DNA of 64,000 nucleotides from an uncultured Fibrobacter sp. GTDB taxonomy: Bacteria; Fibrobacterota; Fibrobacteria; Fibrobacterales; Fibrobacteraceae. A model generated the notes under the pieces. The model saw nothing but the letters and a program-made list of their open reading frames with translations. It was not told where the DNA came from and did not search any database. How positions within the stretch are numbered: position 1 is the first letter of the stretch; each line of letters starts with the position of its first letter. Shown one piece after another: positions 56,777-62,672 of the stretch. Location of the stretch: contig NZ_CAMVDO010000003.1 in assembly GCF_947166265.1 (NCBI RefSeq), positions 124,001-188,000 on the forward strand. The letters run 5' to 3'. Both the position numbers and the translations under genes were made by a program.

Positions 56777-56868
56777 CAAGGTTTTATCCTCGTTTTATCG
56801 TTTTCAAGACCTCTTCCCGCAAAAAGATAATAAAAATGTAATAATTAGCGCAGATATTTTTTATATTA

Positions 56869-56887
56869 CCCAACAAGGGACAATCCC
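56869..56887 (+). promoter_or_regulatory. duplicated leader with alternative hairpins, copy 1
   Basis: CCC-AACAA-GGGA-CAA-TCCC: the central GGG can pair with either flanking CCC. It is followed by TAGGGG and the ATG of the first TIGR02171 gene. The same layout precedes the second gene at 59823. Confidence 0.5.
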
Positions 56888-56898
56888 TAGGGGAAAAT

Positions 56899-59808
56899 AT
56901 GAAATTCTTATCGGCAGTTATTGTATTCCTATTTCTAATGGGCTGCAGCAGCGAAACAAGCAGTTCAAGCAATCAGTCAGATAACGAAAATCAATCGGAT
57001 TTCGTCGAAGTCGAAGGAATGGTCCAACTAAAGAGCGGATCCGTTTCCATCGGTTCCAATGACAAAAGCTTCAAGGCAAACGAACGCCCCGCCATGGAAG
57101 TCATACTCGATTACGACTTCTACATGGGCATCCACGAGGTCACCTGTGGCGAATACGCCAGTGTAGCCAAAAAAGCCAAGCTCAAGACCTTCAAAAAATG
57201 CGAAAATGACAGTCTCCCCCTCACCGACATCACCTACTACGACGCCATCCTTTTTGCAAACGCCAAGAGCAAACAGGATAACCTAGATACAGCCTATACC
57301 TATAGCAAGCCCCTGTATGACGACGACGGGCACTGCACGGAAATGGAAGGTTTTGCATTTCACCCTGATGCGAACGCATTTCGGCTTCCCACCGAGGCGG
57401 AATGGGTCTATGCGGCAAGCCTTGCCTGGGACGTAAAGAAAAGCTGGAATAGCGACAATTCCGATTACAAGCTTCATCCGGTCTGTAGCATATGGACAGA
57501 CTCCACCGGATTCTGTGACATGGCCGGAAACGCGATGGAATGGGTGAATGACTGGATGGGAACATTCCGCGACACAACCGTCACCAACTATGTGGGGGCT
57601 CCCGATGGCGGTGACCTGGGAGAAAGAATCGTAAAAGGGGGCCGTTATTCCTCTACCCCAAAAGAGCTCAACCCATACAGTAGAGGGGATGTCTATACGG
57701 TCACATCAGCCACAAGAGCCGATTACGTTGGCTTTAGACTCGCGTTCGGAAAAATTCCGAACCCACTCTGGATGGGTGACGACGGTAAATCACAATCAAG
57801 CGTCATTACCCCACTAGCCCAAAGCGAGACACTCAAAAAGCTAACAGGCACATACAACGTAAAACTTTCCTTCCGCAACGATATTTCCGGAAATATCGCC
57901 TATATCGACTACCTGAACGGAACGGTTTCTGTCAAGGAAATTACAAAAAATGTCAGCGCGTACCATCCAGAAATTTCTCCCGACGGAAACTGGATTGCCT
58001 ATTGCACCGGATTCGAAGGCGTCTCGGGCAAAACAACAATTTACGTTCAAAACTTTGATACCGAGAATCACATCAAGGTAAAGCTCAAAACAGAAAGTGC
58101 CGCAATCCCCCGCTGGAACGTCCTTGAAAACGGCGACACCGTCATTGTCTACGTAAACGACGCCGGGAACAACAAGGAAAACGCAACGTTCAAAGGAACC
58201 TCAACCTGGCAGGTCAAATTCAAGAATGGAAAATTCGGAAAGCCACAGAAACTTTTCGACGGAGCATACCATGGAGGCATCAGCGAAGACCGCACCCTGG
58301 CTGTTTCGGGCACAAGGATTCTGCGGGCCCGTGTTGCGAAAAAAGGCTCAACCATAACCGACAAAGCAAGCGACATTGTTTGGTACGATTCAGCCCAAGC
58401 CTGCAACGTATCGCTTTCCCAAGATGGAACCAAGCGCACCGCATTCCTCGACTTCGGTGGAAAACCGGGCAAGAAATTTGTCGGCGAAAGCTACGCCACT
58501 CACGAAAGAGTCTTGATTGCAGACAGCACCGGGAAACTAGTTCAATCGCTCAAGGCCCCCACGGGTTATACATTCGACCATACGGAATGGGCAACCAACG
58601 GTGAAAAATCCATTATCGTAGCAACGCTCAGCAACACAAACGGCGCACATACCAAAGTAGTCCTCATCAACCCGACAGACAGCTCCATTACCGAAATCGT
58701 CGAGGGCGAAGAGGTTTGGCATCCGAACCTATGGGTAAAAAGAAATCATATAAAGTACAGTTCGAGTAGTGCCATCAGCAGCAGCTCTGCTATCCGCATC
58801 AGCTCGAGTAACTCCAGTAGCAGCACGGTTATTATTGAAAGCAGCTCGTCGTCATACGATTCAAATATTTCGAGCAGCATTGTCGTTCAAGAAAAATCCT
58901 CCAATTCTAATTACAGCTTTGAACTTGACCCAGACAGTGCCGGAGCCTACTACCGATCTTCGGGGCCCAATAGAGACGCAGACCAATGGCGTTATAAAAT
59001 GGAATTCCTTTGGCAATATAAGGATACGGCTAATTTGGTTGTACTGGGATCGTCTCGTGCCTACCACGGCATAAATCCAATGCTGTTCAGCACACCCGTT
59101 TTCGCTATCAACCTAGGGGTATCCAGAAATGCAATCGCGGGAACCCATTACCTTTTCAACCATTACGTGTTACCCCATGTAAGGAATCTAAAATATGTCG
59201 TATTGACCGTAGATAATGATTTATGGAATGACACCGAATCCTTTTTTACATCAGATTACAAATCATACCCCGGTTACGTTTACGATGCCAATCACAATTT
59301 TTGGATAGATCATTTTCCGGAACAACTCGTAGAATACACCTACGAATCATTAGGAAACAGCATCAAAGGGCAAATGCTTAGAAAAATGCGTGGTTATTAT
59401 GACGTAACGTCCTGCTCTTGGGGAAAACCAGCTGTAGAACAAGACAGTAATTGGTTGCAAAAGCGATATAAATATTACTACGAAAACTTTGAAATGCTAA
59501 AGGATCTGGCAAAAACGTGCTTTGAACATAACATCATCCTTATCGGAATAATCACTCCACGTAGTCCACAATACAAGGAAACAGGATCTTTTGGTTACCA
59601 TGGACTGTTGCGTAGCGAAGCCCCTGCCCTCATTCAGGAAATTGCAGACATTGGCAAGACGTATCCCAACTTTATCCTGATGGACGAAAATAAAATGGGC
59701 AACCACGACTATACAGAAGACATGGCGTTCGACTTCGATCATCTTAATAGAAATGGTGCGGCACAACTAACGGCACGAATAGACGCTCTATTGAAAACTT
59801 TAGAATAA
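56899..59808 (+). CDS. TIGR02171 lipoprotein: FGE-sulfatase + beta-propeller + SGNH domains (1)
   Basis: 969 residues, lipobox FLMGC (Cys15). Residues about 40-285 are an FGE/SUMF1-like C-lectin fold (MEVILDYDFYMGIHEVTCGEYA, RLPTEAEWVYAA, GFCDMAGNAMEWVNDW, YVGFRLAFG). About 300-620 is a TolB/WD40-like propeller (HPEISPDGNWIAYCTG). After a Ser-rich linker, about 690-969 resembles an SGNH/GDSL hydrolase: VVLGSSRAYHG with Ser718/719, NLGVSRN, and FDFDHLN with Asp945/Asp947 and His948. Family TIGR02171 is expanded in F. succinogenes with unknown function. The SGNH part suggests a surface esterase, for instance deacetylating plant glycans. Confidence 0.87.
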   Translation: MKFLSAVIVFLFLMGCSSETSSSSNQSDNENQSDFVEVEGMVQLKSGSVSIGSNDKSFKANERPAMEVILDYDFYMGIHEVTCGEYASVAKKAKLKTFKKCENDSLPLTDITYYDAILFANAKSKQDNLDTAYTYSKPLYDDDGHCTEMEGFAFHPDANAFRLPTEAEWVYAASLAWDVKKSWNSDNSDYKLHPVCSIWTDSTGFCDMAGNAMEWVNDWMGTFRDTTVTNYVGAPDGGDLGERIVKGGRYSSTPKELNPYSRGDVYTVTSATRADYVGFRLAFGKIPNPLWMGDDGKSQSSVITPLAQSETLKKLTGTYNVKLSFRNDISGNIAYIDYLNGTVSVKEITKNVSAYHPEISPDGNWIAYCTGFEGVSGKTTIYVQNFDTENHIKVKLKTESAAIPRWNVLENGDTVIVYVNDAGNNKENATFKGTSTWQVKFKNGKFGKPQKLFDGAYHGGISEDRTLAVSGTRILRARVAKKGSTITDKASDIVWYDSAQACNVSLSQDGTKRTAFLDFGGKPGKKFVGESYATHERVLIADSTGKLVQSLKAPTGYTFDHTEWATNGEKSIIVATLSNTNGAHTKVVLINPTDSSITEIVEGEEVWHPNLWVKRNHIKYSSSSAISSSSAIRISSSNSSSSTVIIESSSSSYDSNISSSIVVQEKSSNSNYSFELDPDSAGAYYRSSGPNRDADQWRYKMEFLWQYKDTANLVVLGSSRAYHGINPMLFSTPVFAINLGVSRNAIAGTHYLFNHYVLPHVRNLKYVVLTVDNDLWNDTESFFTSDYKSYPGYVYDANHNFWIDHFPEQLVEYTYESLGNSIKGQMLRKMRGYYDVTSCSWGKPAVEQDSNWLQKRYKYYYENFEMLKDLAKTCFEHNIILIGIITPRSPQYKETGSFGYHGLLRSEAPALIQEIADIGKTYPNFILMDENKMGNHDYTEDMAFDFDHLNRNGAAQLTARIDALLKTLE

Positions 59809-59822
59809 ACTTTTATATATTA

Positions 59823-59841
59823 CCCAACAAGGGATATTCCC
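59823..59841 (+). promoter_or_regulatory. duplicated leader with alternative hairpins, copy 2
   Basis: CCC-AACAA-GGGA-TAT-TCCC followed by TAGGAG and the ATG. Upstream TATATATTACC lies only 10-20 bp after the first gene's stop, so the second gene may have its own promoter. Confidence 0.5.
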
Positions 59842-59852
59842 TAGGAGAAAAT

Positions 59853-62672
59853 ATGAGAATTTTACTAGCAATTATTGTATTCTTATTTCTAATAGGATGC
59901 AGCAACAGCGAATCGTTTACGCCTCCCAACACCGAGGAGTCCGTTCCTAACGATTCCGTTCAAATCGATCCCATTGTCATTGAAGGAATGATTCACTTCG
60001 CAAACGGCAAAGTCTCCCTTGGCACCAACAACAAGAACTTCAAGGAAAGCGAGCGCCCCGCCATGGAAGTCATACTCGATTACGACTTCTACATGGGCAT
60101 CCACGAGATAACCTGTGGCGAATACGCCAGTGTAGCCAAAAAAGCCAAGCTCAAGACCTTCAAAAAATGCGAAAATGACAGCCTCCCCCTCACCGACATC
60201 ACCTACTACGACGCCATCCTTTTTGCAAACGCCAAAAGTAAACTCGAGAATCGTGATACCGTCTACTCATATCGCAGCGCCATCTTCGATGAAGAAAAGC
60301 ACTGCACCGACCTCGAAGGTTTTGCTTTCCACCCAGGAATCGAAGGCTACAGACTCCCGACCGAAGCGGAATGGGTCTATGCGGCAACCCGTGCTTGGGA
60401 CGTAAAGAAAAGCTGGAACAACGAAAACTCCGAATACAAACTTCATACCGTCTGCAGCAAGGGAGCCGATTCCGCCGGGTTCTGCGACATGGCAGGAAAT
60501 GCCCTGGAATGGGTCAGCGACTGGAAAGGCGACTTCCGCGATACAACCATTACAAACTATGTCGGCGCCCCTAGCGGAGAAGACTTGGGCGAACGAGTTG
60601 TAAAAGGAGGATGCTATTCCTCCTCCGAAAAGGAACTCAACCCCTACAGCAGAGGCGACATATATACCGTCACCTCGTCCACGCGAGCAGAATATGTCGG
60701 TTTCCGGCTAGCCTTCGGAAACATCCCCAACGCGCTCTGGATGAATAACGACGGGACTTCACAGACAAGCGTCATCACGCCACTTGCAGGCATCGAGACC
60801 ATCAAAAAAATCACCGGCTCATACAACGTAAAGCTCGCCTTCCGCAACGATGTATCTGGAAACATCGCCTATATAGACTACTTGAACGGCAGTATGTCCG
60901 TCAAGGAAATCACCAAAAACACAGACAGCTACCATCCAGAAATTTCTCCTGACGGAAACTGGATTGTCTATTGTACCGGATTCGAGGGAGTCGCAGGGAA
61001 ATCAACAATTTACGTTCAAAGCCTTGAGGGAGAGGAAACCATCCAGGTAAAACTCAAAGCAGAAAGTGCAACAATCCCCCGCTGGCGCGTCCTTGAAAAC
61101 GGCGACACAACTATAGTCTACGTGACCGATGCCGGGAGCAACAGGAATAAAGCGACATTCAAATCGACTTCGACATGGCAAGTCAAATTCATGGACGGCA
61201 AGTTCGGCACCCCGCAAAAACTGTTCGACGGAGCCTACCACGGTGGTATCAGCGAAGACCGCACCCTTGCCGTATCGGGCGCACAGCTCCTGCGCGCTCG
61301 CATTGCCCAGAACGGGTCCTCCGTAACAGGAAAAGCAAACGATGTCGTCTGGTACGATTCAGCGCAAGCCTGCAACGTATCACTTTCCCAGGATGGGACC
61401 AAGCGCACTACCTTCCTTGATTTTGCAGGGAAGCCGGGCAAGGACTTTGTCGGCGAAAACTATTCCACCCATGCGCGTCTTTTTATAGCTGACAGCACCG
61501 GAAAACTGATCCATTCCATCAGGGCCCCCTCGGGCTACACCTTCGACCATACGGAATGGTCGACCGATGGAGAAAAATCCATTATCGTAGCAAGCCTCAC
61601 CAACACAAACGGGGCACATTCTAAAATCGCCCTTATAAATCCAGAAGACAACAGCATCACCGAGATTGTCGAAGGCGATGAGCTCTGGCACCCGAACTTG
61701 TGGATTAAGAAAAAGACCAGCAAATCAAGTTCCGACAACGACACGCTCCCTGCAAGACCAGCTTTCGAACTGGATCCAGACAGTGCCGGAATTTATTACA
61801 ACACCTCTGGAGCTCACGATAGAGCCGACCAGTGGCGCTATAAAATGGAATTCCTGTGGAAATATAAAGATACGGCAAACATTGTCATTATCGGTTCTTC
61901 ACGAACCTACTATGGCATAAATCCCCTGCTTTTTAGCGAGCCCTATTTTGCAGCAAATCTGTCCGTTTCAGGAAACCACCAAAAAGCATCTTATCATTTC
62001 TTAACGCAATATGTACTCCCCCATGTGAACAAATTAAAGGTAGTCATCAAGGACATTGATTTGGACAGATGGCATACCGTTAGTTCGGGCATTTTTAGGT
62101 CTGCATATACAGCATACCCTGGATACGTTTACGACAAAAACCACAACTATTGGAAAGGCAACTATCCAGAAGGTTTGGCTGAAGCCGCTTACGATGCCCC
62201 CGGTAGCGCCTTAATACAAGGCGTGCTGCGTCCAACACGAGGATACCAGGAAAGATACGCCCACGGCTGGGGCAAGCCAACAACAAATCATGATTCCACC
62301 TGGCTTGACGAACTCAGGAACAACTACTATGATAATTTCGACTATCTTGTAAAAATGATCAAAGAATGTCAAAAGAGGGACATCATTTTTATCGGCATCA
62401 TCACGCCAGAAAATCCGCATTACAAAGAAACAGGTGCCTTTGGAAAGCATGGGCTCAGGAGAAGCGAGGCCACATCGCTTATAGCAGAAATCAATAGCCT
62501 AAGCGAGAAGTATCCCAACTTCATCTTGATGGACGAAAACAAGATGGGCAATCATGACTACACAGATGAAATGGCGTTTGATACGGACCATCTAGCGGGC
62601 GCAGGCGCAACGCAGCTGACTCTTCGTGTGAACGAACTCATCAAGACATTAAACATCCATTTTGAACAGTAA
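59853..62672 (+). CDS. TIGR02171 lipoprotein: FGE-sulfatase + beta-propeller + SGNH domains (2)
   Basis: 939 residues, paralogue of the gene before it with the same domain order. Lipobox FLIGC. The linker before the SGNH part is shorter (KSSSDNDTLPARP instead of the long Ser run). IIGSSRTYYGINP and FDTDHLAGAGA keep the candidate Ser, Asp and His. A 182-bp tract in the FGE domain (60054-60235) is about 98% identical to the first gene, while the flanks have diverged. Expression could be joint or separate. Function as for its neighbour. Confidence 0.87.
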   Translation: MRILLAIIVFLFLIGCSNSESFTPPNTEESVPNDSVQIDPIVIEGMIHFANGKVSLGTNNKNFKESERPAMEVILDYDFYMGIHEITCGEYASVAKKAKLKTFKKCENDSLPLTDITYYDAILFANAKSKLENRDTVYSYRSAIFDEEKHCTDLEGFAFHPGIEGYRLPTEAEWVYAATRAWDVKKSWNNENSEYKLHTVCSKGADSAGFCDMAGNALEWVSDWKGDFRDTTITNYVGAPSGEDLGERVVKGGCYSSSEKELNPYSRGDIYTVTSSTRAEYVGFRLAFGNIPNALWMNNDGTSQTSVITPLAGIETIKKITGSYNVKLAFRNDVSGNIAYIDYLNGSMSVKEITKNTDSYHPEISPDGNWIVYCTGFEGVAGKSTIYVQSLEGEETIQVKLKAESATIPRWRVLENGDTTIVYVTDAGSNRNKATFKSTSTWQVKFMDGKFGTPQKLFDGAYHGGISEDRTLAVSGAQLLRARIAQNGSSVTGKANDVVWYDSAQACNVSLSQDGTKRTTFLDFAGKPGKDFVGENYSTHARLFIADSTGKLIHSIRAPSGYTFDHTEWSTDGEKSIIVASLTNTNGAHSKIALINPEDNSITEIVEGDELWHPNLWIKKKTSKSSSDNDTLPARPAFELDPDSAGIYYNTSGAHDRADQWRYKMEFLWKYKDTANIVIIGSSRTYYGINPLLFSEPYFAANLSVSGNHQKASYHFLTQYVLPHVNKLKVVIKDIDLDRWHTVSSGIFRSAYTAYPGYVYDKNHNYWKGNYPEGLAEAAYDAPGSALIQGVLRPTRGYQERYAHGWGKPTTNHDSTWLDELRNNYYDNFDYLVKMIKECQKRDIIFIGIITPENPHYKETGAFGKHGLRRSEATSLIAEINSLSEKYPNFILMDENKMGNHDYTDEMAFDTDHLAGAGATQLTLRVNELIKTLNIHFEQ

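Follow-up and report, generated by a model that had tools for sequence, protein, structure and literature searches.

The window analysed here, a stretch of 64,000 nucleotides from an uncultured Fibrobacter sp., carries two consecutive genes whose products we call P0001 and P0002. Their features, and those of the DNA that precedes them, are as follows.

56864..56898, forward strand: leader ATTACCCAACAAGGGANNNTCCCTAGGxGAAAAT before P0001, repeated at 59818-59852 before P0002
56899..59808, forward strand: P0001, TIGR02171 family lipoprotein of 969 residues, intact open reading frame
56899..56946, forward strand: signal peptide of P0001 with lipobox LMGC (Cys16)
57001..57753, forward strand: P0001 residues 35-285, domain of FGE/C-type-lectin fold in which both FGE catalytic cysteines are missing (PF03781, 5.6e-31, and fold match)
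57808..58743, forward strand: P0001 residues 304-615, TolB-like beta-propeller (strands of the model; TolB, Z 23.4)
58756..58914, forward strand: P0001 residues 620-672, disordered serine-rich linker (pLDDT below 50), largely absent from P0002
58969..59805, forward strand: P0001 residues 691-969, SGNH domain
59053..59055, forward strand: codon of Ser719, the predicted nucleophile (P0002 equivalent Ser683, 61899-61901)
59731..59742, forward strand: codons of Asp945-x-x-His948, block V (P0002 Asp910-x-x-His913, 62580-62591)
59853..62672, forward strand: P0002, TIGR02171 family lipoprotein of 939 residues, intact open reading frame 44 bp downstream of P0001
59853-59900, forward strand: signal peptide of P0002 with lipobox LIGC (Cys16)
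61815..62669, forward strand: P0002 residues 655-939, SGNH domain

Over their full length, P0001 and P0002 score 1191.7 and 1152.8 bits against TIGR02171 (NCBIfam Fb_sc_TIGR02171), more than twice its curated cut-off (544.35 bits); the two share 63% identity. The host genome has seven members of the family: the window pair, three in tandem on contig C30, and one each on C67 and C11. Intact reading frames, whole-length family matches, mutual identity and the number of copies together mean that the reading of these proteins is not a matter of chance. Most of the Fibrobacter genomes sampled have roughly four to eleven copies, and the family is found across the phylum. In two cases, G036:C14 and G048:C2, two members are fused in a single reading frame, the open frames being 1843-1844 residues long. 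We did not find TIGR02171 by name in the literature searched, which included the main texts of the F. succinogenes S85 papers, and the three-domain plan described below appears to be undescribed there, although each of its parts is of a known kind.

The lipobox cysteine is nearly invariant in alignment A2, and both proteins are probably exported lipoproteins of the outer membrane; it is from the lipobox that we infer a surface location. The two leaders are nearly identical. In each, a short palindrome, AAGGGANNNTCCCT, overlaps the ribosome-binding region. Each also has a TATATTA box, and the leaders look as if every copy carried its own control region. A genome-wide search located the palindrome at the two genes of the window and at one other site, and its being a motif of the whole genome was thus ruled out. 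On one side the pair is flanked by a divergent acetolactate decarboxylase gene and on the other by pheT (named from its sequence); no gene of envelope biosynthesis was found as a neighbour at the locus.

The original prediction gave both paralogues an FGE-like part, a TolB-like propeller and a C-terminal SGNH-type hydrolase, and structure modelling bears out each of the three. A full-length model of P0001, built from 53 relatives, has a mean pLDDT of 86.9. In it, residues 35-285 match FGE with Z about 23, and the catalytic cysteines C336 and C341 of human FGE align with Ser252 and Leu257; the FGE-like part is therefore incapable of FGE catalysis. Structurally, these residues are matched best by variable protein 1 of Treponema denticola (Z 27.9), which is not an enzyme. 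The propeller is recognizable from its structure, with TolB matching the model over 260 residues at 3.3 Å. By sequence it shows just a sub-threshold PD40 match in the Pfam scan, a phmmer search of PDB sequences with it gave no matches, and against the NCBIfam TolB equivalog P0002 scores 19.6 bits (cut-off 343.15) and P0001 has no listed match. We suppose that the non-catalytic FGE-like domain and the propeller would serve to bind or dock a partner or the substrate.

The C-terminal domain is the part to which a chemistry can be assigned. An AlphaFold2 model of residues 691-969 alone, built from 58 sequences, has a pLDDT of 95.9 and a pTM of 0.94, and adopts the alpha/beta/alpha fold of the SGNH superfamily, the absence of which would have refuted the original prediction. 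Its best structural matches include platelet-activating factor acetylhydrolase (PAF-AH) Ib (1es9; Z 14.6, 186 residues, 3.1 Å), DltD (3bma; Z 13.4, 247 residues, 3.9 Å), sialic acid acetylesterase and further acetylesterases. DltD covers most of the domain and aligns over more residues than the small esterases do. The best Foldseek matches are mostly SGNH enzymes, acetylxylan and rhamnogalacturonan acetylesterases among them, and a viral fold search with the domain returned generic SGNH esterases only. Sequence comparison reaches less far: as a single query the P0001 domain matches nothing in Pfam or among PDB sequences, nor does a profile of 58 Fibrobacter rows (A1) match any PDB sequence. 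A profile of 28 distant members (A3) is the only one to reach PAF-AH (E 0.0017).

The A3 alignment places Ser47, Asp192 and His195 of PAF-AH, which form its catalytic triad, on Ser719, Asp945 and His948 of P0001. The topology of the model agrees, since Ser719 stands at the start of the helix that follows strand 1, and His948 just precedes the last helix, and we regard the fold and the register of these residues as nearly certain. Ser718 had been proposed as the nucleophile; the serine in the GDS register is its neighbour, Ser719, and position 718 is occupied by Ser, Asn, Ile or Thr. Both Ser719 and His948 are present in all 58 Fibrobacter rows of A1. Among further relatives in which the position is aligned, Gly717 and Ser719 are conserved in 64 of 64 and His948 in 65 of 65, so that the invariance extends over about 120 relatives, down to about 30% identity. 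A second conserved stretch, DENKMGNHDY (P0001 residues 929-938, window 59683-59712), is almost invariant in the Fibrobacter members and matches no known SGNH block; its Asp929 is invariant in all rows.

Of the classical blocks, I (GxS) and V (DxxH) are present in both window proteins, as had been claimed. The block II glycine, predicted for both as NLGVS, holds for P0001 only; P0002 has NLSVS, and Ala, Gly or Ser is found across the family. A change from Gly to Ser at this position is known from PatB and from OatA of Streptococcus pneumoniae (PMC12148441; PMC9487903), so that its replacement does not speak against membership of the SGNH superfamily. In place of the block III Asn there is Asp774 in Fibrobacter and mostly Gly in the distant members; this Asn is also missing from several accepted SGNH families (PMC9487903). 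In block V the His does not vary. At the first residue, 36 of the A1 rows have Asp, 20 Asn and two Gly, and of 29 distant members 27 have Asp. Within the host genome Asp is found in three members, namely the window pair and the C11 copy, and Asn in the remaining four.

These departures might mean that the SGNH domain has no catalytic role and serves for binding or as a scaffold. Its oxyanion-hole positions are degenerate, many paralogues have Asn instead of Asp, and the preceding FGE-like domain has itself lost its catalytic Cys. However, invariant Ser and His in about 120 divergent sequences would not be expected of a dead enzyme, and CE2 enzymes with a Ser-His dyad and no Asp are known to be active (PMC9487903), so we consider a non-catalytic role distinctly improbable. 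An active acyl-ester chemistry is, in our judgement, quite probable. Esterase activity is plausible, and the predicted domain is also compatible with an acyltransferase. Ser719, activated by His948 (together with Asp945 in P0001), would attack an acyl ester to give an acyl-serine, which could be resolved either by water or by a sugar hydroxyl.

What the acyl ester might belong to is suggested by kinship. The A1 profile finds standalone SGNH proteins encoded next to an MBOAT gene in each of two distant Fibrobacterota genomes (L123 and L132; 1.5e-13 and 9e-11 in a search space of 10,000); the GDSL_2 proteins and the AlgX-like protein of the host genome are not among its matches. The nearest outside relatives of the domain are thus SGNH proteins encoded beside MBOAT acyltransferases, which makes an O-acylated glycan belonging to the cell itself the likeliest substrate. 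It may be a glycan of the envelope or an exopolysaccharide. Scattered weak matches of relatives to DltD and DUF1574 agree with this kinship. For DltD (PF04914) there is no match to P0001, P0002 or the P0001 SGNH domain; eight of the 58 members give hits at E values of 1 or less (best 2e-6), and the scores of those examined individually are below 22.7 bits. The host genome contains no DltD match and, elsewhere, two MBOAT genes. One of these (L098, on C72) is clustered with two GDSL_2-domain proteins and is likely to represent a separate acylation set. In a single case, in another genome, about 1.6 kb separate a TIGR02171 gene from a divergent MBOAT-SGNH pair (L132 3554-10467, G091:C45).

DltD works with DltB, DltC and DltX. 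It could be that the TIGR02171 domain is likewise strictly an O-acyltransferase, accepting an acyl group that an MBOAT partner supplies, in the manner of DltD and PatB, and handing it to a glycan. The relationship to MBOAT-adjacent proteins, the 247-residue alignment with DltD, the weak to moderate DltD Pfam matches and the block II precedents in PatB and OatA are all in keeping with this. Gene context and location are less so: there is no MBOAT gene beside the window pair or inside the arrays described below, one genome (G025) has the domain and no detected MBOAT, and an outer-membrane lipoprotein would not directly reach an MBOAT protein of the inner membrane. We therefore think it rather unlikely that transfer is the sole activity.

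Elsewhere, TIGR02171 genes occur in a conserved order in which an AlgX-like SGNH lipoprotein and a transglutaminase-like protein are followed by one to three family members (L090 6023-18816, which is the C30 array of the host genome, G000; also L022, L036, L041, L048, L130, L131 and L133). Several of these arrays also encode a membrane protein of about 500-540 residues without a Pfam match. This setting favours chemistry on a glycan of the bacterium's own, but the window pair does not have it. In three genomes (G058, G084 and G034) 8-10 kb separate an MBOAT gene from the array or the AlgX-like gene. A shared operon was rejected, since the intervening genes are unrelated and partly divergent, and for the same reason this proximity counts as synteny only; it also speaks against the strict transferase.

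The original prediction named hemicellulose as the substrate, with the protein as a surface lipoprotein that strips acetyl or feruloyl groups from it. Several points fit this reading: the host belongs to a fibrolytic lineage, 17 carbohydrate esterases are annotated in F. succinogenes S85 (PMC3079729), acetylxylan and rhamnogalacturonan acetylesterases are among the fold neighbours, and the C30 array has a GH5 gene in its vicinity. Within the genus, moreover, the copy number of the domain correlates with the number of GH10 matches (Spearman 0.59). It correlates equally with genome size (0.59), however, and not clearly with GH9. The SGNH domain was found in 75 of 120 Fibrobacterota genomes, and outside group f1, the family of the window, its presence shows no association with GH10 (17 of 21 genomes with the domain, 23 of 33 without) or GH9 (19 of 21 and 27 of 33). 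Six Fibrobacter genomes without the domain retain 4-8 GH9 and 1-3 GH10 matches, and there are four genomes with the domain but no GH10 match, and two with no GH9 match. MBOAT, by contrast, was detected in 20 of the 21 genomes with the domain (the exception being G025) and in 12 of the 33 without (p 1.2e-5; p 0.0099 for genomes of at least 3.4 Mb), an association that is confounded by ancestry and genome size, the p values ignoring shared ancestry. That presence follows MBOAT and not GH9 or GH10 weakens the plant-fibre reading. The MBOAT-linked relatives and the lack of any carbohydrate-binding module in the Pfam scan count in the same direction. Hemicellulose found no direct support, and we hold such an esterase to be rather unlikely, though still a serious competitor. 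Two SGNH domains with one in-frame TAA each (G116:C7 25839-26678 and G080:C7 41633-42484) are possibly decaying copies.

Between plant fibre and the bacterium's own coat, the evidence leans slightly towards the coat. That the substrate is a glycan of the cell's own envelope is a tentative proposal, to which we give a little less than an even chance. The whole picture, of exported three-domain lipoproteins with SGNH acyl-ester chemistry acting on such a glycan, seems to us evenly balanced between right and wrong. Points against it are that roughly one Fibrobacter row in three has Asn in place of Asp945, that the window pair has no neighbour from envelope biosynthesis, and that the C72 MBOAT gene already has two GDSL neighbours. 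A fuller scheme can be imagined, but is doubtful: these would be acyl-ester enzymes of the outer membrane specific to the Fibrobacterota, in which an SGNH domain taken over from MBOAT partners is joined to a TolB-like propeller and to an FGE fold that has retired from catalysis. They would edit the acylation of the surface glycan together with the AlgX-like enzyme, and their paralogues would have diverged in activity, one form having the Asp of the triad and the other Asn. The family gains a domain plan and a named predicted nucleophile, so that a single protein and a single mutant would suffice to test its chemistry. Should the own-envelope reading be true, it would point to a system for glycan acylation in a phylum for whose attachment to fibre the cell surface is of central importance.

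In relation to known systems, the NCBIfam model TIGR02171 is without an assigned function, and the propeller and SGNH assignments are added by the present analysis. The catalytic subunit of PAF acetylhydrolase Ib shares the SGNH fold and the register of the catalytic Ser, Asp and His, but is only 12-15% identical and differs by insertions and in blocks II and III. AlgX has a circularly permuted SGNH order with DxH, whereas in P0001 the Ser comes first and the His last, in a DxxH motif. The SGNH partners of MBOAT proteins (DltD, PF04914; DUF1574, PF07611) are closer, resembling the TIGR02171 domain in fold and in their larger core (247 residues to DltD) and sharing the motifs GSS(R/H)...GINP and DADHLSxxGAxKL. 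Those encoded beside MBOAT genes have an N-terminal hydrophobic segment and neither FGE-like domain nor propeller, whereas in the window pair the SGNH domain ends a lipoprotein and no MBOAT gene is adjacent. Finally, PorK/GldK of the type IX secretion system, which is without propeller and SGNH domain, is likewise a lipoprotein with an FGE-like fold without the catalytic Cys (Z 22.1), and in PorK this fold serves as a docking hub (PMC12421860).
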